DNA of 52,930 nucleotides, from the NCBI GenBank assembly GCA_021849045.1, contig JAJZTK010000010.1, forward strand, positions 1-52,930, written 5' to 3'. The translations under genes and the position numbers were made by a program. This DNA comes from Deltaproteobacteria bacterium. Lineage in GTDB: Bacteria > Desulfobacterota > Desulfuromonadia > Geobacterales > DSM-12255. This document shows, piece by piece, positions 28,996 through 51,923 of the stretch. The notes under the pieces were generated by a model. That model ran no database searches and had not been told where the DNA came from. It saw nothing but the letters and a program-made list of their open reading frames with translations. Position 1 is the first letter of the stretch, and each line of letters opens with the position of its first letter.

Positions 28996-30375
28996 TCAGT
29001 GGGAGGGAAGCATTATGCCATATTTCTTCAGAAGGTCGTAGAGAGTGGGCCGGCTCACCCCCAACTCCTCGGCAGCCTTCAGCACGTTACCTTCATTGCA
29101 CTCAAGGGCCACAGTGATCATGTTTTTTTCCAGGCGCTCCCGGGCATCACGAAGAGTCACAGCCTCGGCCGGAGACTGATCTGCAACGGCCTCTGTTTCC
29201 GGCGTGAAACCGAGATCAACCGGCTCGATGGCTCCGCCTTCACTCATGATCACGGCACGCTGGATCCGGTTGCGCATCTCGCGCACATTGCCGGGCCAGT
29301 CATACGCCTCGATCTGCTCAATGGCGGCAGCGTTGAAGCGGCGGATACGTTTCTTGTATTCGTCGCTGAAGAGGTTGAGGAAGTAATTGGCCAACAGGAG
29401 GCGATCCCCCTTCCGGTCCCTGAGCGGCAGAAGATTAATGGTGACCACCCCGACCCGGTAATACAGGTCCTCCCTGAGCTTACCCTCCCGGATCGCCCGC
29501 TCGATCTCCACGTTGGTGGCACAGACGATCCGGACGTCCACCGCGATATTCTCCCGGCCCCCGACCCGCTGGATGATGCCGTCCTGGAGAAACCGGAGCA
29601 GCTTCACCTGCAGGTTCGCCGGCAGTTCGCCCAGTTCGTCCAGAAAGAGTGTTCCCTTGTGGGCATACTGGATCTTGCCCATCACCATGGAGTGCGCGCC
29701 GGTGAAGGCCCCCTTCTCGTGACCGAAGAGCTCGGACTCCAGGAGGTTCTCCGGAATCGCCCCACAGTTGATCGGCACGAACGGGCCGCCTTTGCGAAGA
29801 CTCGTCTCGTGAATGGCCCTGGCAACCAGCTCCTTGCCGGTTCCGCTCTCACCGGTGATGAGCACCGGCACATCCGTGGTAGAGACCTTTCGGATCGAGG
29901 TAAAGACCGCCTGCATCTCCGGACACTGACCGACCATCCCCCCCATGCCGACCACCTTGGACTCCGCCGAATGGCGCAACTGGCGGTTCTGCTCCTCGAT
30001 ATTGGCAAGATGAAAGGCCCGGGCGATGATCACTTTCAACTCATCCAGAACCGGCGGTTTCGGGTAGAAGTCGTAGGCTCCGGTCTGAATGGCACGTAGC
30101 GCATTGTCTCGCTCGCTGTTGCCGGTCATGACAATGACCTTGGCTTCCGGGTTCTCGGCCAGCATCTCAGCAAGGCAGCGGAATCCTTCCTCGGAACTGT
30201 CCTCATGGGGAGGCAACCCGAGATCGAGAATGACCACCTTGGGCTGCTGTTTGCGAAACTGGACCATGCCGTCCCGGCCATCAGCGGCCAGCAGCATGGA
30301 GTAGTCGCGAGCAAGTCCCCATTTCAGCTGCTGGCGGATCTCCTCGTTATCGTCGACAATCAGAAGCTTTTCCAT
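28996..30375 (-). CDS. prsR: Sigma-54-dependent response regulator, PrsR type
   Basis: A 459-residue NtrC-type activator: receiver domain (residues 1-120, Asp in VVILDLGLPPHEDS, Lys in YPKPP), AAA+ domain with Walker A GESGTGKE and the sigma-54 contact loop GAFTGA, and a Fis-type HTH (NVLKAAEELGVSRPTLYDLLKKYGI). The extended receiver loop LPPHEDSSEEGFR is characteristic of PrsR of the PEP-CTERM/exosortase regulatory pair. It lies 104 bases after prsK, with heptamer element 3 between them. Confidence 0.92.
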   Translation of the reverse strand: MEKLLIVDDNEEIRQQLKWGLARDYSMLLAADGRDGMVQFRKQQPKVVILDLGLPPHEDSSEEGFRCLAEMLAENPEAKVIVMTGNSERDNALRAIQTGAYDFYPKPPVLDELKVIIARAFHLANIEEQNRQLRHSAESKVVGMGGMVGQCPEMQAVFTSIRKVSTTDVPVLITGESGTGKELVARAIHETSLRKGGPFVPINCGAIPENLLESELFGHEKGAFTGAHSMVMGKIQYAHKGTLFLDELGELPANLQVKLLRFLQDGIIQRVGGRENIAVDVRIVCATNVEIERAIREGKLREDLYYRVGVVTINLLPLRDRKGDRLLLANYFLNLFSDEYKKRIRRFNAAAIEQIEAYDWPGNVREMRNRIQRAVIMSEGGAIEPVDLGFTPETEAVADQSPAEAVTLRDARERLEKNMITVALECNEGNVLKAAEELGVSRPTLYDLLKKYGIMLPSH

Positions 30376-30383
30376 ATCAAATC

Positions 30384-30484
30384 CGTTACTCGTTACTCGT
30401 TACTCGTTACTCGTGACTGGTGACTTGAAAACCATGATTCGTGACTCGCGACTCGAAAATGCCTTTAACCAGTCACCAGTCACG
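30384..30484. repeat. Heptamer mirror element 3
   Basis: Four perfect CGTTACT units (30384-30411) continue as CGTGACT and GGTGACT (to 30425), with further units CGTGACT and CGCGACT at 30440-30453. The pair CGTGACTGGTGACT (30412-30425) has a perfect 14-bp inverted partner at 30471-30484, which overlaps the prsK stop codon. The tandem part forms the leader of prsR. Confidence 0.85.
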
Positions 30485-32528
30485 GCTTTTTAAGCCACAC
30501 GGTGAAAACAGTCCCCTTCCCAACCTCGCTCTGCACCTCCAGCCGCCCGCCATGGGCCTCCACGATCTGCCGCGACTGGTAGAGCCCGATGCCGAGCCCC
30601 TTCTTCTTGGTAGTGGCAAACGGCTTAAAGAGCTCCCGGCGTATGTAGTCTGCAGACATCCCGCTTCCATGATCGACGACCCTGATGTGGGGTGCTCCGA
30701 CCATTGCCACCTCGACGGCAACTGGGCTCCCGTCCGGCGAAGCCTCCAGGGCGTTGAGCAGGAGATTCAGGATGACCTTCTGCAACTCCTCGGCATCGAC
30801 CTTGACCACCAGGGGCTCGCCGGTGACGGTCACCCTGTCGGCCGGCAGGAATGCCATTGCCCGTCGGACCACGGTCAGCAGGTCTACCGGCTGCAGATTG
30901 AGCAGTTCCTTCTCCCCCAGATTCTTCAGCCGGCCGATCAGCCCCTGCATCTTGTTCACCGTGTTGTCGAGGGAGCGGAGCATATCCTGCTGGAACTCTG
31001 GATTATCGATGTAATGGCGGGCATTGTCAACCATGAGGGAGAGTCCGGCCACATGATTCTTCAGGTCGTGGATGACGAAGGTGGCGATATTGCCGATCGC
31101 CTCCATCTCCCGCGACCGGGTAAGCTGGTCGGACAACCGCTGGTTGCGCAGGGCGAACGAGGCCTGGCGGGCGATGGTCTTCATCAGATCGAAGTCCTCG
31201 TACATTACGGTCTCGCTCGGGTTGACCTGCCTGCCGAGAACGATGAACCCCTCCAACTGCTCGCCTGACAACAGAGGAACAACAAAGGAAACCCGGTATC
31301 GTTCCAGGAACGACCGGGTCTCCACAGACACCTCAAGAAAACTGTCGGTATGGCGAAACACCCATCCCCGGCCGGCGACGTAACGGACAAGAGCGTTGTC
31401 GAGTCCGAACGTATCGGACAGCGCTTCCATTTCATACACGGCCGTATTTACGTAAGTTTTCAGATCAGGATCGAGGAGATAGAGGGCGGCGGACTGAATC
31501 CCGAAGGCGTCGCAGTAGGCAGAAAGGATCACCTGTTGGAGGTCCGCCTCACTCTGGCGGCTTGCCAGCCGCTCGGTAAACTGAAGCCACTGGACCCGGT
31601 AATCGTACTTGCTCTGATAAAAGTTTTTGTGGAGAAAGACCCTGATCTCCCGACGGACCTTTCCGGAAAGGAAGAGAATCAGCAGGGCTATCCCGGTGGA
31701 GAGGATGAAGCCGATGGTCACGGAGCGCTGAAACTCTGCGCCGAAATAACGCATTCCTTCGCCAAGGAGACCGATCAGGACCAGGTAGATGCCAACGGCA
31801 ATGAGAATTACCGACTTGAATGCCACCTGTCGGGAAACACGGATTTTTACCCCTTCCCGCTGCCGCAACCTGCCATAGGACATCATCCCTACTGCCAGGA
31901 TCATAAAAAAGGAACGAATCGCGACAAAATGCATGTTTATGGTGCGAAAGAGGAGTGCCTGGCTGTAGTAAAGCGCATAAACCGCCAGGATGGTGCCGAC
32001 CCCTATGGTCTCGAATTTAATCTTCCACAGTTCAGCAGGCGTTGCATTGGCCAGGGTGGTCTCCAGATTGACCAGCGAGATGACCAGATAAACCATGATC
32101 CCGATGTAAAACGCGAAACCGACCGGCGCGAGAAACACCACCTGTTCAAAGGGAAAGTCAGGGGCGTAGAAAAAGCTGGTAAGCGGGAATAACCACGCAG
32201 CCAGGGGGAAACAGAGGGACAGGAACAGCAGCCCCCACTGTAGGCGGGATAGGTTGCGCAGCCCCCCCTGTCGGGTATGGGTTGAGCTGGCAAGCAGCCA
32301 AGTCAGGGGTAATGCTGCCTCGGCAAAGAGCGCCCAGCGTCCCCAGCCGACCCCGCTGCCGGAAAAATTCAATGACAACAGGTTGAACGCTTCCAGAACG
32401 GCTATCATGCCAAGGGCAAGAGAAAGCAAGCTGTCGGCGACAGGACTCCTACGGCTGTAAGCATTCCAGCACGCATACGTCATTGAGACAATAATTGCAG
32501 CGATGCCTGTCACTAGCGGAAAGTCCAT
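30480..32528 (-). CDS. prsK: Membrane histidine kinase, PrsK type
   Basis: A 682-residue sensor kinase. The N-terminal third contains seven or more membrane segments, then a GAF-like domain (residues about 330-450, TYVNTAVYEMEALSDTFGL ... GEQLEGFIVLGRQ). A HisKA-like box follows with phospho-His in FVIHDLKNHVAGLSLMVDNA, then HATPase_c with NLLLNALEASPDG and GLGIGLYQSRQIVEAHGG. The long multi-pass N-terminus and the H-D-L-K-N box match PrsK. Start MDFPLVTG at 32528 has no ribosome site. Confidence 0.92.
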   Translation of the reverse strand: MDFPLVTGIAAIIVSMTYACWNAYSRRSPVADSLLSLALGMIAVLEAFNLLSLNFSGSGVGWGRWALFAEAALPLTWLLASSTHTRQGGLRNLSRLQWGLLFLSLCFPLAAWLFPLTSFFYAPDFPFEQVVFLAPVGFAFYIGIMVYLVISLVNLETTLANATPAELWKIKFETIGVGTILAVYALYYSQALLFRTINMHFVAIRSFFMILAVGMMSYGRLRQREGVKIRVSRQVAFKSVILIAVGIYLVLIGLLGEGMRYFGAEFQRSVTIGFILSTGIALLILFLSGKVRREIRVFLHKNFYQSKYDYRVQWLQFTERLASRQSEADLQQVILSAYCDAFGIQSAALYLLDPDLKTYVNTAVYEMEALSDTFGLDNALVRYVAGRGWVFRHTDSFLEVSVETRSFLERYRVSFVVPLLSGEQLEGFIVLGRQVNPSETVMYEDFDLMKTIARQASFALRNQRLSDQLTRSREMEAIGNIATFVIHDLKNHVAGLSLMVDNARHYIDNPEFQQDMLRSLDNTVNKMQGLIGRLKNLGEKELLNLQPVDLLTVVRRAMAFLPADRVTVTGEPLVVKVDAEELQKVILNLLLNALEASPDGSPVAVEVAMVGAPHIRVVDHGSGMSADYIRRELFKPFATTKKKGLGIGLYQSRQIVEAHGGRLEVQSEVGKGTVFTVWLKKP

Positions 32529-32540
32529 GTTAGGATATGC

Positions 32541-32568
32541 TTTATAGTACAATTTCCGGGCAGTGCAA
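32541..32568 (-). promoter_or_regulatory. Candidate promoter of prsK
   Basis: On the minus strand TTGCAC (32568-32563), a 16-base spacer and TATAAA (32546-32541). The predicted transcript would start only about 6 bases before the prsK ATG, consistent with the missing ribosome site and a nearly leaderless message. Confidence 0.4.
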
Positions 32569-32744
32569 CCACAAAAGTGGACGTCCCCTATGACTCCCTG
32601 ATCTCCTGCATCGCCTCTCAACCCGAGGCGCTTCAACTGTCTAAAAGGCGAATGACTCTATAAAGAGGGTAGATACCAGAAGGCTCTGATGATAACCTGG
32701 TCGTTCTAAGCGCCTGGGCGACTGACGTGACCTAGAGGTAACGA

Positions 32745-45806: not shown

Positions 45807-46003
45807 TTAATAGTCGTTACGTCCGTAAAAAGAAAAATTTATAACAAAATCACCTGATTGATGCAAGCTTTAATGCCCTTTACCGGCTATTTTACGGCAT
45901 ATAAGGCAAAAAGTGAGAACTGGCGCCGATTCGCAGCCGTTTTGATACCTTGCGACCGGGCGTTCTTATGATACTGTTACTCATATCCCAGTTGGAGAAC
46001 GCC

Positions 46004-47566
46004 ATGGACCAGCGACTCCTCAGTTCGCTCCTCAGGCCCGAAGCCTATCCCGAACCGACCGACTCTGTGTCGCTGCAGCAGACCCACGTCTCCTGGCTCC
46101 TCTTCACCGACCGATTTGTCTACAAAATCAAGAAACCGGTCGATTTCGGTTTTCTCAACTTTACCACCATGGACCGCCGCCGCTTTTACTGTCACGAAGA
46201 GGTGCGCCTCAACCGCCGTCTCTCTCCGGACCTGTACGAAGGTGTCATTGAAATCAGGGAGACCCCTGACGGTGCAGTCTTCGACGGAACCGGACGGGTT
46301 ATCGACTACGCGGTGAAGATGCACCGGCTACCGGCCGAGCGGATGCTTGACCGCCTGGTGGAGACGGAAGGGGTAACTTCCGACCGTATCCGTGAACTTG
46401 GCAGGATCATTGCCGACTTCCATCTGGCTGCGGCCCGGGGAAGCGAAATCAGCCGCCATGGTGAGCTCGGCACCATCCGGAGGAACTGGACCGAGAGCAT
46501 GGAACAGGTGGCACCATTCGTGCCCAACTGCATTCCCGAACAGCACCTGACCACTATCCGCGCCTGGTCGGAGCAATTCATGACCGAACAGGCGCCACTG
46601 TTCGCCAAGCGGCTGGCTGAGGGGTTCATTCGCGACTGCGACGGCGATCTCCATTTGGGAAACATCTGCCTCACGGATCGCTTTCACATCTTCGACTGCA
46701 TCGAATTCAACGAGCGCTTCCGCTATATCGATACCGCGGCGGACCTGGCCTTTCTCCTCATGGATCTCGACTTCCACGGCCGGAGCGACTTTGGTTCGCT
46801 TCTGCTGGAGACCTATATGGCCGAGACCGGTGACGGGGAGATTGCGCTGCTGCTGGATTTCTACCGTGTCTATCGTGCCTTTGTCCGGGGGAAGGTGACG
46901 GCATTCCGCTTGAATGACCCGGCTACACCACAGGAAGAGCGGAGCCGGGTTCAGGAACTGGCAACGGCCTATTTCCGGCTGGCCAGGGGGTACCTCCTGC
47001 GGCCGAACCTCCCCCCTACTCTCTTCATCACCTGTGGCCTGATGGGGAGCGGCAAAAGCAGCATCGCCCGCCTTCTGGCAAGGGAACTGGGACTGGTCTG
47101 GCTCCGCTCGGACAGGACCAGAAAGGAATTGGCCGGCGTCACCGTACCACCCGGCACCGCGGAGGATTTCGGCGCAGGACTCTACACAATTGAGATGACC
47201 GAGGCCACGTACGGGGAGTTGGCCCGGTTGGCAGAAGAACAGCTGAGAGCGGGACGAAGTGTCGTGGTGGACGCCACGTTTTGCAAGACGAAAGATCGCG
47301 ACCGCTTCCGTCAACTGGGTGCCAGAATCGGCTCCCGCTGCATCACCATTGCCGTTGAATGCCCTCTTGACCTGCTCGCAAAAAGACTGCAGAGCCGCTA
47401 CGAGGAGAGATTGGACATTTCCGATGGCAGGCCCGAACTGCTCGACGGGCAGGCCGCGACATTCGAACCACCGAGCCGGGATGAAGGGGACCTGATCCGG
47501 TTGCACTCAGTTGGCCACCCCTTTGCCCTGGCTGAACAGGTACTGCAGGAGCTGAAACTGTCATGA
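46004..47566 (+). CDS. APH-like kinase fused to a P-loop kinase
   Basis: A 520-residue two-domain protein. Residues 1-330 form an aminoglycoside-phosphotransferase-like kinase with DRFVYKIKKPVDFGFLNF, catalytic loop RDCDGDLHLGNIC (Asp, Asn) and metal-site IFDCIEFNERFRYID. Residues from about 340 form a P-loop kinase with Walker A GLMGSGKSSIA and a downstream WLRSDRTRKEL. The combination is known as a bifunctional APH/AAA-type protein; the substrate is unknown. ATG 46004 has GGAG 8 bases upstream. It overlaps the next gene by 4 bases (ATGA) and heads the SLC5-PP2C cluster. Confidence 0.88.
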   Translation: MDQRLLSSLLRPEAYPEPTDSVSLQQTHVSWLLFTDRFVYKIKKPVDFGFLNFTTMDRRRFYCHEEVRLNRRLSPDLYEGVIEIRETPDGAVFDGTGRVIDYAVKMHRLPAERMLDRLVETEGVTSDRIRELGRIIADFHLAAARGSEISRHGELGTIRRNWTESMEQVAPFVPNCIPEQHLTTIRAWSEQFMTEQAPLFAKRLAEGFIRDCDGDLHLGNICLTDRFHIFDCIEFNERFRYIDTAADLAFLLMDLDFHGRSDFGSLLLETYMAETGDGEIALLLDFYRVYRAFVRGKVTAFRLNDPATPQEERSRVQELATAYFRLARGYLLRPNLPPTLFITCGLMGSGKSSIARLLARELGLVWLRSDRTRKELAGVTVPPGTAEDFGAGLYTIEMTEATYGELARLAEEQLRAGRSVVVDATFCKTKDRDRFRQLGARIGSRCITIAVECPLDLLAKRLQSRYEERLDISDGRPELLDGQAATFEPPSRDEGDLIRLHSVGHPFALAEQVLQELKLS

Positions 47567-47817
47567 CGCCTTTCCAGCGCTGGAAACGACGGATGCTCAA
47601 ACACCTCCGCCTCATGGAGTCCTGGGTAATTTTCTTTCTCCTTGGTCTCATCATGATGAACTACCCGTTCATCCACATCTTCAACAAAAATGTGGAGGTG
47701 TTCGGCTTCCCACTACTGTTTCTCTACCTTATGGGGGGGTGGGCAGTCTCCATCTGCGTCATCTACCTCTTCACCAAAGCCATGGAGGATAACAACCACA
47801 AGGAGGAACGCCATTGA
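47563..47817 (+). CDS. Small two-helix membrane protein coupled to the SLC5 receptor
   Basis: An 84-residue protein: basic N-terminus (FQRWKRRMLKHLRLM), two membrane helices (SWVIFFLLGLIMMNYPFI and GFPLLFLYLMGGWAVSICVIYLF) and a charged C-tail. It overlaps the upstream kinase (ATGA) and the downstream receptor (TTGA) by 4 bases each. Small two-helix proteins of this layout accompany SSS-family transporters such as ActP, and the CbrX product precedes CbrA. It is probably an assembly or regulatory partner of the receptor. Placing it in that group is inference. Confidence 0.8.
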   Translation: MTPFQRWKRRMLKHLRLMESWVIFFLLGLIMMNYPFIHIFNKNVEVFGFPLLFLYLMGGWAVSICVIYLFTKAMEDNNHKEERH

Positions 47818-50800
47818 GCGTTGGCCTGGAAACGGTCGTTGGGGTTTCCCTCCTCTATGTGATCCTGCTCTTCCTGGTCGCCTATTACGCCCATGTAAAA
47901 GGAGAACAGGGCCAAAGCATTGTCTCGAACCCCTACATCTACTCACTGTCGATAGCCGTCTACTGCACGTCATGGACCTTTTACGGCAGTGTCGGCAAGG
48001 CTGCCACCACCGGCCTGGATTTCATCCTCATCTACCTGGGCCCATCCCTTACCGCCTTTTCCTGGTGGCTGATCCTGCGAAAGATCATCCGAATCTGCAA
48101 GGAAAACAACATCACTTCCATCGCCGACTTCCTCAGTTCCCGCTATGGCAAATCCCAATGGCTGGGAGCCCTGATCACGGTTATTGCCATTCTTGGCATC
48201 ATCCCCTATGTTGCCTTGCAGTTGAAAGCGGTCTCCACCACCTTCCTGATCATTTGCGGCAACCAGCACATCCATTTCCCCAAAGAGATCATAGGTCAAG
48301 ACGTTGCTCTCCATTCCGGCTTTATTGCCGCCCTCGTCCTCAGTATCTTTGGCATAATCTTCGGGGCACGCAGCCTGAGATCGTCGGAACGGCACGAAGG
48401 GCTGGTGGCGGCCATCGCCCTCGAATCGATCGTCAAGCTGGTGACGTTTCTGATCGTAGGGATATTTGTCACGTTTTTCCTGTTCGATGGGTTCACCGAC
48501 ATATTCTCCCGACTGAAGGCGCAGCAGACCGTGTACGACCACTTGACCACCCTGGGCGGAGAGGGCGAATCCGATTACGCCAACTGGCTTACCATGCTGT
48601 TTCTTTCCATGAGCGGCATCATGCTACTCCCCCGCCAGTTCCACATCATGGTGATCGAAAACTCGTCGGAAGAGCATATCAAGGAGGCGATGTGGCGGTT
48701 TCCGGCCTATCTCTTTGCCATCAACCTCTTTGTCATCCCGATCGCCTTTGGCGGCATCCTGTCCACCGGCAGCACCAAGGGAGCCGACTATTTCGTCCTG
48801 ACGCTGCCGCTGCTGAGCGGTCACTCGTGGATCGCTCTTCTCGCCTTCCTGGGAGGGTTCTCCGCCGCAGCCGGCATGATCATGACCGAATCGGTGGCGG
48901 TATCAACCATGTTCCTGAACCACCTGGTCATGCCGATTGTGGTCAGACTGACTCCGCGATCCTGGTTTCCGCTGCTCCTCATCAACCTCAAGCGGTTCGG
49001 CATCTTCCTCGTCGTCTTTCTCGGTTATGCCTACAACCTGATGCTGGGGGACACCTACACCCTGGTGAACATGGGGCTGATCTCCTTTGCTGCGGCTGCC
49101 CAGTTCGTTCCGGCCATGCTGGGTGGACTCTACTGGCGCCGCGGGAACAAGGCGGGAGCCATCAGCGGCATCCTCTGCGGATTCCTGGTCTGGTTCTACT
49201 CGTTGCTGCTCCCTTCGTTCATCATTTCCGGCTGGTGGAAAACAGATATCCTGGAAAAGGGGCCTTTTGGCATGGCACTTCTGAAGCCAACCGAGCTATT
49301 CGGCCTCTCGGGATTGGATATCTGGACCAATTCCCTCTTCTGGAGCATGTTTTTCAATGCCGGCTGCTACCTCTTCTGCTCGATCGCCCTGAGACAGGGT
49401 GACAAAGAACGGGACCAGGTACGAAAATTCGTGGACGTATTCCGGCCAAAGGGGGAGGAACCCCGATGGGAAACAAAACGCCTGTCAAAGCCGGTAACCG
49501 TCATGCAGTTCGTCACCCTGCTGGCCAAGTTCACCGGCGAGCCCCAGGCATATGCGGCGATCGGCGAATACCTGGGTAACCGCGAGATCGACGAGAAAGG
49601 CGGCGTTTCGGAGTTCGAACTCCCCAACCTCAAACGGTTCGTTGAAAAAACCCTGGCAGGCTCGGTCGGCGCGGCAGCCGCCGGCGCCATCGTTGAAAGC
49701 TACCTGTCGGACGTGGGCTCGAAGATGGAACCTTTTTACGACATCTTCAGTTCGGTACGAACCTCTCTGGAGGAGAGCAGTGAGGCGCTCTACGTCCGGC
49801 TCAAGGCATCCGAGATCATGAACCGGTCCCTCGATCTCCGGATCATTATGGAAGATCTGCTGGAGCTGCTGAACAAGGAGTTCAAGTTCGATCTGGCCGT
49901 AATCAGGACCGTGGACAGTACCGGTGCTCTTCGAGTGCAAAGCTTCAAAGGGATTGAGGTGGACGTAATCCTCGGCAACACCATTGTCCCGGAGGTCGAC
50001 TCTTACATCGGCGAGGCGTTTCTCACCAATAAAGCCCAATTTGTCAACGACGCGAGAAACATCACCAAAGCCTATACCCAGGCGATCCTGGCGCGACAGA
50101 ACTTCAGCTCGTTTGCCCATATCCCCATTGCCAGGGAAGGTGAGCCAGCCACCGGCATCCTGTCGGTCTTCTCGATCAACATCGTCGGCCTCTTTACGGA
50201 ACAATTCCTCGATCTGCTGGCCAGTCTGGCCGGCCAACTGGCCCAGGCGGTCAAGATCGTCGAAGAACGGGAAGCTCGGGAGCAGGAGCGGAAAGAAAAG
50301 GAAAAGGCCCTTCTGGAAACCGCCCGGGTCACCAGGGACATGGAACTGGCCAAGCAGATCCAGCACTCACTCCTCCCCGACGCCCCACCTTCCATTCCGG
50401 GGATAGAGCTTGCCAGCCGCTGCATTCCGGCTACCCACATCGGTGGCGATTATTACGATTACTTCCCGCGAAGCCCTGAGATCATCGACTTCGTGATTGC
50501 CGACGTTTCCGGACACAGTGTCGGTGCGGCACTGATCATGGTAGAAACCAGGTCGGTCCTCAGGGCGCAGGTCATGACCACCTCCAGTACCGGCAACATC
50601 ATCAAACAGCTTAACGCATTGCTTTACGAAGATCTTTCCCGGGCCGAACTCTTTATCAGCATGTTCTACGCCAAATATGACGCCCGGGACAGGACCCTCA
50701 GCTATTCCAGCGCCGGCCACAATCAACCGCTGCTGTACCGGCATTGCGAAAGGAGTTGCGAAGAGCTGGATGCCGAAGGGATGATCCTGGGGGTCAAGCC

Positions 50801-51059
50801 GGATGTGGAGTTCGAGGAAAAACGGCTCGAAATGGCCCCGGGAGATGTCCTCTTGCTGTACACCGACGGAATAACCGAAGCGGAAAACGAAGCCGGGGAG
50901 ATGTTCGGCACAGAGCGGTTGATGGCTGCCCTGAAACGGGAAGTCGATGGGGATGCGACGGCCATCGTGGAGGGGATCTACCGGGAAGTGAGGTCCTTTA
51001 CCCGCATCGAAATTCAGACCGACGACATATCGGTAGTCGTCCTGAAAGTGCTGTTATAA
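47814..51059 (+). CDS. SLC5-STAC-GAF-PP2C transporter-like receptor phosphatase
   Basis: A 1081-residue membrane protein. Residues 1-530 are a sodium:solute symporter (SLC5/SSS) module with about 13 membrane helices. Residues about 536-640 look like a STAC domain (FVTLLAKFTGEPQAYAAIG ... RFVEKTLAGSVGAAAAGAIV). A GAF-like domain spans about 675-810, a coiled coil 810-860 (EEREAREQERKEKEKALLE) and a SpoIIE/PP2C phosphatase 860-1081 with GGDYYD (877), ADVSGHS, YTDGITEAEN and TDDISVVVL metal residues. The start TTG 47814 has AAGGAGG. It probably dephosphorylates the STAS protein encoded next in response to a solute. Confidence 0.9.
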   Translation: MSVGLETVVGVSLLYVILLFLVAYYAHVKGEQGQSIVSNPYIYSLSIAVYCTSWTFYGSVGKAATTGLDFILIYLGPSLTAFSWWLILRKIIRICKENNITSIADFLSSRYGKSQWLGALITVIAILGIIPYVALQLKAVSTTFLIICGNQHIHFPKEIIGQDVALHSGFIAALVLSIFGIIFGARSLRSSERHEGLVAAIALESIVKLVTFLIVGIFVTFFLFDGFTDIFSRLKAQQTVYDHLTTLGGEGESDYANWLTMLFLSMSGIMLLPRQFHIMVIENSSEEHIKEAMWRFPAYLFAINLFVIPIAFGGILSTGSTKGADYFVLTLPLLSGHSWIALLAFLGGFSAAAGMIMTESVAVSTMFLNHLVMPIVVRLTPRSWFPLLLINLKRFGIFLVVFLGYAYNLMLGDTYTLVNMGLISFAAAAQFVPAMLGGLYWRRGNKAGAISGILCGFLVWFYSLLLPSFIISGWWKTDILEKGPFGMALLKPTELFGLSGLDIWTNSLFWSMFFNAGCYLFCSIALRQGDKERDQVRKFVDVFRPKGEEPRWETKRLSKPVTVMQFVTLLAKFTGEPQAYAAIGEYLGNREIDEKGGVSEFELPNLKRFVEKTLAGSVGAAAAGAIVESYLSDVGSKMEPFYDIFSSVRTSLEESSEALYVRLKASEIMNRSLDLRIIMEDLLELLNKEFKFDLAVIRTVDSTGALRVQSFKGIEVDVILGNTIVPEVDSYIGEAFLTNKAQFVNDARNITKAYTQAILARQNFSSFAHIPIAREGEPATGILSVFSINIVGLFTEQFLDLLASLAGQLAQAVKIVEEREAREQERKEKEKALLETARVTRDMELAKQIQHSLLPDAPPSIPGIELASRCIPATHIGGDYYDYFPRSPEIIDFVIADVSGHSVGAALIMVETRSVLRAQVMTTSSTGNIIKQLNALLYEDLSRAELFISMFYAKYDARDRTLSYSSAGHNQPLLYRHCERSCEELDAEGMILGVKPDVEFEEKRLEMAPGDVLLLYTDGITEAENEAGEMFGTERLMAALKREVDGDATAIVEGIYREVRSFTRIEIQTDDISVVVLKVLL

Positions 51060-51151
51060 CAAAAGAACGCGTCAGGGTGTCGCGAAGACGCCAATGATGT
51101 GCAATAATGATTATAGAATTGGAAATCGACGGCCACACAAGGAGGATTGTC

Positions 51152-51487
51152 ATGAACCTGAAATCCGAGATACGAAACAATGTCGTCATTCTGGAAGTGC
51201 AGGAAGAGCGGCTCGATGCCCACAACTCCGGAGACCTGAAAGCGGCCATGCTGAAGTTCTATGAAGAGGGAAACAAGAATATCCTGATCGACCTGAAAGA
51301 TGTCCGGTTCATCGACAGTTCCGGACTCGGCGCCCTGGTATCGGGATTCAAGAATGCCATCTCCCACCAGGGGAACCTCAAGCTGGCCTCTTTACAGCCT
51401 CAGGTCAAGTCGATGTTCGAACTCACCCGTCTACACCGTGTCTTCGAGATATTCCCCTCCCTGACCGAAGCCATTGAAAGCCTCTGA
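51152..51487 (+). CDS. STAS-domain anti-sigma-factor antagonist
   Basis: A 111-residue SpoIIAA/RsbV-type protein. The phosphorylatable serine lies in RFIDSSGLGALVSG, the family site that the partner kinase phosphorylates and the PP2C domain dephosphorylates. EERLDAHNSGDLKAAM and the C-terminal LKLASLQPQVKSMFELTRLHRVFEIFP are typical. AAGGAGG precedes the ATG at 51152, better than the longer frame from 51107. It lies between the PP2C receptor and the ATPase gene, giving the three parts of a partner switch. Confidence 0.92.
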   Translation: MNLKSEIRNNVVILEVQEERLDAHNSGDLKAAMLKFYEEGNKNILIDLKDVRFIDSSGLGALVSGFKNAISHQGNLKLASLQPQVKSMFELTRLHRVFEIFPSLTEAIESL

Positions 51488-51497
51488 GGATATGGTC

Positions 51498-51923
51498 ATG
51501 GGCGACAACTCTATTGCCGTTGAAATCAAGGTGCCAAACCAGACCCGCTACCTCAGCCTGATCGGCCGCATCGGAGAGGACGTGGCGCGGGAGCTGAACC
51601 GCTATTCCGGCGACCGTGAGACCCTGGCCTATCACATCAACCTGGTCCTCACGGAAGCCATGGTGAATGCCATCAAGTATGCCGGCGCCGGAGGGGAGGA
51701 GGAGACGGTCCACATCCGCATCCATATCACCGATGACGCACTGGCCATCAAGGTGTTCGACCATGGCCAGGGATTCGATATCAACAATATTCCGGATCCG
51801 GATTTTGAAACGATAGAAGATCGGGGACGGGGTATCTTCCTGATCAGGTCGCTGATGGATTCGGTCTGCTATCGTAAGGCAGCGGATGGCAACGTACTGG
51901 AGATGATCAAGAAACTGACATGA
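51498..51923 (+). CDS. RsbW/SpoIIAB-type ATPase (anti-sigma factor kinase)
   Basis: A 141-residue GHKL-type serine kinase. The N box is NLVLTEAMVNAIKYA, the G1 box is VFDHGQGFD and the G2 box is EDRGRGIFLIRSLMDSV. By family precedent it phosphorylates the STAS protein and, when not bound to unphosphorylated STAS, sequesters a sigma factor or another target. ATG 51498 has GAGGA 7 bases upstream; it begins 10 bases after the STAS stop. No sigma factor gene is adjacent, so the target lies elsewhere. Confidence 0.92.
   Translation: MGDNSIAVEIKVPNQTRYLSLIGRIGEDVARELNRYSGDRETLAYHINLVLTEAMVNAIKYAGAGGEEETVHIRIHITDDALAIKVFDHGQGFDINNIPDPDFETIEDRGRGIFLIRSLMDSVCYRKAADGNVLEMIKKLT

Follow-up and report, generated by a model that had tools for sequence, protein, structure and literature searches.

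The window analysed here, a 52,930 nt stretch from a Deltaproteobacteria bacterium (contig JAJZTK010000010.1, assembly GCA_021849045.1), carries a four-gene cassette that encodes a CbrX-like small membrane protein, a receptor joining an SLC5 transporter-like domain to a PP2C phosphatase through a STAC-like segment and a GAF domain, a STAS protein and an RsbW-like protein (Table 1). The cassette is conserved through the class Desulfuromonadia. Its input side would work like the transceptor CbrA of Pseudomonas, and its output side like the RsbU-RsbV-RsbW partner switch. We consider it likely that the receptor is a CbrA-type transceptor that has exchanged its histidine kinase output for a partner-switch phosphatase. 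It is thus a variant in which two known kinds of system are joined in one conserved cassette.

The reading frame of the receptor is real, as a full-length counterpart in a sister genome is 95% identical and counterparts across the class are 48-67% identical. Residues 1-468 match the electron cryo-microscopy chain of Pseudomonas CbrA (10ed_A, E 8.9e-67), and when an AlphaFold2 model of the entire receptor (mean predicted local distance difference test score 79) is compared with known structures, human CHT1, SGLT and bacterial SiaT align over approximately 450-480 residues at Z 28-33, with Z 32.6 over 464 residues for the match to SLC5 transporters. The SLC5/SSS module that an earlier note on this DNA had recognized from the sequence alone was thus borne out by homology and predicted fold. 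The Pfam family SSF was not called in the receptor by a general scan at E<=1, so the SLC5 assignment depends on CbrA homology and fold, and the transporter part would be missed by such annotation alone.

The ligand pocket is also recognizable. In the 10ed_A alignment, CbrA residues Y51, S53, W55, F71 and Y75 correspond to receptor residues Y50, T52, W54, F70 and Y74, and the pocket is largely conserved in PP2C-type and kinase-type proteins alike. CbrA K196, which occupies the Na2 site of the CbrA SLC5 domain, corresponds to K208 of the receptor, a lysine present in 35 of 36 receptors (the exception is L095) and in each of the 20 aligned relatives of the kinase type. Because this lysine is kept, Na+-driven symport by the receptor appears unlikely. 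The earlier note had suggested that solute transport or binding gates the phosphatase and so couples nutrient flux to the switch; given the conserved K208, binding is a better candidate than flux, and by analogy with CbrA it is binding that may gate the phosphatase.

Beyond the SLC5 domain, the STAC similarity that had been anticipated for residues 536-640 was found for residues 550-648, which form four helices in the AlphaFold2 model. A profile of this segment built from PP2C-type members alone placed 10ed_A top among 177,635 PDB sequences (E 0.21); with histidine kinase relatives added, the STAC region of CbrA in 10ed_A was again top of the 177,635, in a colinear match (E 0.0042) of moderate strength. 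Two motifs, G575-x3-A579 and G619-x3-A623, are invariant in 52 sequences (receptors and kinases), and relatives in the alignment show LGPEKA and LGPVAA at the positions of these two motifs. The published STAC motif is LGPx(x)A (PMC4834066).

The GAF-like domain proposed in the earlier note is matched both by Pfam GAF_2 and by 2QYB, a solved domain of Geobacter sulfurreducens (E 6e-66; 62% identity in the structure alignment). Between the STAC-like segment and the GAF domain, every one of the 36 proteins has the same 67-residue spacing (A623 to F690). The linker between the GAF domain and the phosphatase, by comparison, has lengths of 42, 31 or 28 residues only across the family, differing by 11 and 14 residues, which are coiled-coil-compatible steps. 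As these steps represent about two events, they are suggestive only. They are consistent with a proposed model in which a coiled-coil linker allows the same sensor to control a phosphatase, a kinase or a cyclase (PMC12143880).

All three proteins of the putative switch retain the residues expected of them. The phosphatase is a SpoIIE-type PP2C by its Pfam match, and none of its metal-binding aspartates (D879, D897, D1018 and D1071) varies among the 36 receptors. The STAS protein carries a DSSGLG motif (S56/S57) that is invariant in 18 aligned proteins. In the RsbW-like protein the N, G1 and G2 boxes are intact, with E54, N58, D89xG91xG93 and G111-R-G113 invariant in 25 proteins (numbering of the translation from 51495). 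The STAS gene follows the receptor after a gap of approximately 90 nt, and the starts of the two downstream genes (51152 and 51498) are most likely the in-frame ATGs that follow Shine-Dalgarno-like sequences. The identity of both genes, as first read from the sequence, is upheld by the TIGR00377 and HATPase_c_2 matches. A Pfam scan found neither HisKA nor HATPase_c in the receptor, the C-terminus of which is GAF-PP2C, in agreement with the earlier statement that no histidine kinase is involved. Among stand-alone RsbW-type proteins of the genome, only the one in the cassette gave a strong match. At a separate locus of the same genome (L009:5691-7993, minus strand, contig G000:C199), a gene for a 455 aa PP2C protein is directly followed by one for a 312 aa protein with a HATPase_c_2-like region, a pair that could be a second partner switch.

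Conservation was judged from the flanks of receptor loci fetched within the class, which span several families. The SLC5-STAC region was detected in 34 of the 38 genomes of the relatives set, the genome of the window included. STAS and RsbW genes follow the receptor in 31 of 31 primary loci, and in each of the 30 primary loci that have upstream sequence a CbrX-like gene lies directly before it. In two near-complete genomes (G024 and G032) the receptor and RsbW are both missing, while RpoS is kept. The reading of these genes as a partner switch is supported jointly by homology, by the conservation of both catalytic residues and operon, and by this co-loss.

The contents of the cassette are those reported earlier for 47814-51923, but its extent is larger, as it begins upstream with the CbrX-like open reading frame (47563-47817). 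The CbrX-like companion and the class-wide conservation are additions to what had been read from this DNA before. The end of the CbrX-like frame overlaps the start of the receptor gene by 4 nt (TTGA). In Pseudomonas, cbrX overlaps cbrA and is translationally coupled to it, and its product forms a helical hairpin that binds the SLC5 domain (PMC6591292, PMC13022988). Most of the SLC5-STAC histidine kinases retrieved from other Desulfobacterota, or from the phylum to which a Methylothermaceae record belongs, have directly upstream an open reading frame that a profile of the CbrX-like family detects (E 1e-26 to 1e-6); against the PDB, a profile of the companion matched no CbrX chain. As homologues adjoin SLC5-STAC kinases of other groups, we propose that the CbrX-like protein may be a general companion of SLC5-STAC receptors. 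The genome of the window also encodes, at L092:5389-8813 (plus strand, contig G000:C147), an SLC5-type protein with a histidine kinase C-terminus and, overlapping its start, a small CbrX-like frame of its own.

The phosphatase output distinguishes the Desulfuromonadia receptors from their relatives. Among the matches listed for 395 Desulfobacterota genomes, those that extend from SLC5 as far as PP2C came from 17 genomes, all of this class. In the other Desulfobacterota relatives the match reaches approximately residue 630-840, and each such protein that was read has a histidine kinase, in some cases hybrid, at its C-terminus. Among the matches listed for 398 genomes from the phylum of the Methylothermaceae record, SLC5-STAC matches stop by residue 728; among those for 347 genomes from the phylum of an Acidimicrobiia record, there was a single SLC5 match, to residue 693, the rest covering GAF or PP2C. 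As scoring in these phylum-wide samples covered the two best candidates of each genome, rare cases of the full architecture might be missing from the matches listed. A contig scan by PP2C motifs returned mostly PP2C-only proteins among its listed matches, with the full architecture only in Geobacteraceae/Desulfuromonadales records or unplaced Deltaproteobacteria records. Our literature searches found no paper describing the CbrX-like/receptor/STAS/RsbW cassette. A SMART survey in a 2021 review does report actinobacterial proteins that combine SSS with HATPase, GAF and PP2C_SIG (PMC7918813), so the fusion of SSS to PP2C as such is not wholly new.

Table 1. Features of the CbrX-like/receptor/STAS/RsbW cassette and of the gene upstream, in window coordinates
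Feature	Position	Strand	Details
APH-like/AAA_33 fused kinase gene	45950..47566	+	overlaps CbrX-like start
CbrX-like small membrane protein	47563..47817	+	84 aa; two hydrophobic (predicted transmembrane) stretches
SLC5-STAC-GAF-PP2C receptor phosphatase	47814..51059	+	1081 aa; TTG start; AAGGAGG Shine-Dalgarno at 47800-47806
SLC5 transporter-like domain	47814..49400	+	approximately residues 1-529; 13 transmembrane segments by homology with CbrA
STAC-like segment	49461..49757	+	residues 550-648; helices 563-574, 576-587, 602-618, 620-632
GAF domain	49830..50252	+	residues 673-813; Pfam GAF_2 E 1.3e-10
Helical linker GAF-PP2C	50235..50363	+	Q808-Q850
SpoIIE-type PP2C phosphatase	50490..51050	+	SpoIIE E 7e-52
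STAS anti-anti-sigma-type protein	51152..51487	+	111 aa; TIGR00377 E 7e-23; single-domain
RsbW-like kinase/anti-sigma-type protein	51498..51923	+	141 aa; HATPase_c_2 E 2.6e-25

Upstream of the cassette, the stop of the fused APH/AAA kinase gene overlaps the start of the CbrX-like frame (ATGA). This kinase gene lies upstream in many loci and is absent from some, and as its presence is not constant it is an accessory neighbour. Elsewhere in the window (28996-32636, minus strand), adjoining genes for a GAF histidine kinase and a sigma-54 response regulator form a separate two-component system.

Our data suggest a model in which the CbrX-like hairpin would pack against the SLC5 domain, and the STAC-like segment beneath the membrane would read whether the SLC5 pocket is occupied or which conformation it has, the ligand probably being a small metabolite bound without Na+ coupling. 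The GAF domain could integrate a second, cytosolic cue with the STAC signal, and the combined signal would pass along the helical linker to a PP2C dimer, occupancy either raising or lowering phosphatase activity. When active, the phosphatase would remove the phosphate that the RsbW-like kinase places on Ser56 of the STAS protein; unphosphorylated STAS would then bind RsbW, and the target of RsbW would be freed.

Several observations weigh against this model. By sequence alone, the STAC match is weak (E 0.0042), and a Foldseek search with the isolated STAC model, which is small and of middling confidence, gave insignificant matches only. No sigma factor gene lies beside the module in the window, as the earlier note had observed, or at the other loci read, although partner switches of the RsbU/SpoIIE type usually, if not obligatorily, have a dedicated one close by. 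Lastly, five second copies of the receptor (L007, L080, L093, L094 and L096) lack CbrX, STAS and RsbW altogether, although L080 has 477 nt of downstream sequence only, and such whole receptors without switch genes mean that the phosphatase may have other substrates. The second copy in the genome of the window, L007:6616-9822 (minus strand, contig G000:C233), is an SLC5-STAC-GAF-PP2C protein 49% identical to the receptor, with a GAF-PP2C linker 11 residues shorter and a next gene that by eye is shikimate kinase-like.

The target of the switch, which the earlier note left open, remains so within narrower limits. Genes near the class-level loci include lgt, kinase, TPR, SBP_bac_5 transporter, HAD and Clp genes, and assigning the target by neighbourhood failed, as no sigma, anti-sigma or cyclase gene is conserved nearby. 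A search of the genome for sigma factors, with RpoN outside its scope, found RpoD, RpoS, RpoH, FliA and a fragmentary sigma-like reading frame with sigma region 2. FliA was rejected as a universal target because two near-complete genomes that have the module, G014 and G017, show no detectable FliA. RpoS was rejected because G005, G022 and G025, near-complete genomes of the order whose close relatives have RpoS, keep the module without detectable RpoS, although in G022 RpoH is not listed either and a miss is not fully excluded. Each factor being missing from module-bearing genomes, neither is the universal target. In the sister genome, FliA is in two overlapping pieces (G001:C18:60422-61289), either because the gene is frameshifted or because the assembly is at fault.

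RpoD was present in every genome checked for it and is a possible target. Chlamydia offers a precedent: its RsbU senses a metabolite and, by way of RsbW, affects the housekeeping sigma factor (PMC11619594). A target of RsbW that is not a sigma factor, such as a diguanylate cyclase or other enzyme as in HsbA-HsbD, is equally open; we give it somewhat less than an even chance, as a question within the transceptor reading rather than an alternative to it. The missing sigma gene neighbours and the genomes lacking FliA or RpoS speak for such a target, and the STAS protein HsbA has a diguanylate cyclase among its binding partners (PMC6482189), but the chlamydial switch keeps RpoD in play, and lineages could differ in the sigma factor used.

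Of the alternatives to a CbrA-type transceptor with a phosphatase output, the one that survives best, though unlikely, is that the SLC5 domain serves only as an anchor, or else as a transporter in its own right, and the GAF domain alone controls the phosphatase, making the protein an ordinary membrane-tethered RsbU. Shorter proteins with GAF-PP2C-only matches are common elsewhere, CbrA without its transmembrane part still signals if overexpressed, and deletion of STAC from the CbrA of P. fluorescens had no visible phenotype (PMC7918813). However, the SLC5 pocket, K208, the STAC motifs and the exact STAC-GAF spacing are strongly constrained, and the CbrX-like partner is kept together with the switch. 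It is quite improbable that the signal runs in reverse, with the switch or the GAF domain regulating solute transport by SLC5 through STAC. A role in the regulation of solute transport was proposed by the authors who described STAC (PMC4834066), and the SLC5 domain of CbrA does transport histidine, but that transport is equally good without the cytosolic domains (PMC7918813), and a PP2C predicted from its residues to be catalytically intact, beside STAS and RsbW, has the make-up of an output module. That the STAS and RsbW genes are mere neighbours acting in a different pathway, as the gap after the receptor gene and the orphan copies might suggest, is hardly credible given adjacency at every primary locus in several families and joint absence from two genomes.

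Compared with known systems, the transceptor with a phosphatase output shares with CbrA-CbrX the SLC5 fold and pocket, the lysine at the Na2 position, the adjoining STAC and the overlapping gene for a small partner with two predicted transmembrane segments; the PAS-DHp-CA kinase of CbrA (SLC5-STAC-PAS-histidine kinase) and its response regulator are replaced by GAF-PP2C, STAS and RsbW. The SLC5-STAC-GAF histidine kinases of other Desulfobacterota are approximately 42-48% identical over SLC5, STAC and GAF, and most of those read have a homologous CbrX-like gene upstream, but they end in a histidine kinase, sometimes hybrid, and as this is absent the receptor is not one of their number. Like RsbU-RsbV-RsbW of Bacillus and Chlamydia, the cassette has PP2C, STAS and RsbW proteins in which the residues for catalysis and phosphorylation are conserved. 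The RsbU of Chlamydia is a metabolite-sensing phosphatase too, with a periplasmic sensor (PMC11619594), whereas the putative sensor here is a transporter fold. CrsR-CrsA and HsbR-HsbA are also Gram-negative partner switches built from PP2C, an RsbW-type domain and STAS (PMC6482189), but they combine phosphatase and kinase/anti-sigma in one response regulator acting on RpoS. In the cassette these are separate proteins, a Pfam scan found no receiver domain in the receptor, STAS or RsbW-like proteins, and RpoS is not universal among module-bearing genomes. The actinobacterial SSS proteins similarly combine SSS with GAF and PP2C, but have HATPase in the same protein and are described without STAC, CbrX or an operon (PMC7918813); none was among the matches listed for the 347 genomes from the phylum of the Acidimicrobiia record.

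More tentatively, SLC5-STAC together with the CbrX-like protein may constitute an output-independent input module, with the SLC5-STAC-GAF proteins of Desulfuromonadia driving a serine switch on the housekeeping sigma factor or a non-sigma target without a two-component system. The pattern of shared input and different output fits the proposal that sensors are exchanged via coiled-coil linkers (PMC12143880), and would represent a natural experiment on signalling by transporter folds, in which one SLC5-STAC-GAF input, with the same kind of small membrane partner, leads either to a histidine kinase or to a serine phosphatase. On the more tentative reading, the occupancy of a transporter fold by a metabolite would be tied to global control with no two-component system in between. 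In Geobacter-like bacteria the cassette probably links the sensing of nutrients with global gene control along a route not described before, and it would give Geobacter-type bacteria, which are important for reducing metals and producing current, a switch hitherto unassigned, for which the candidate targets are few and testable.

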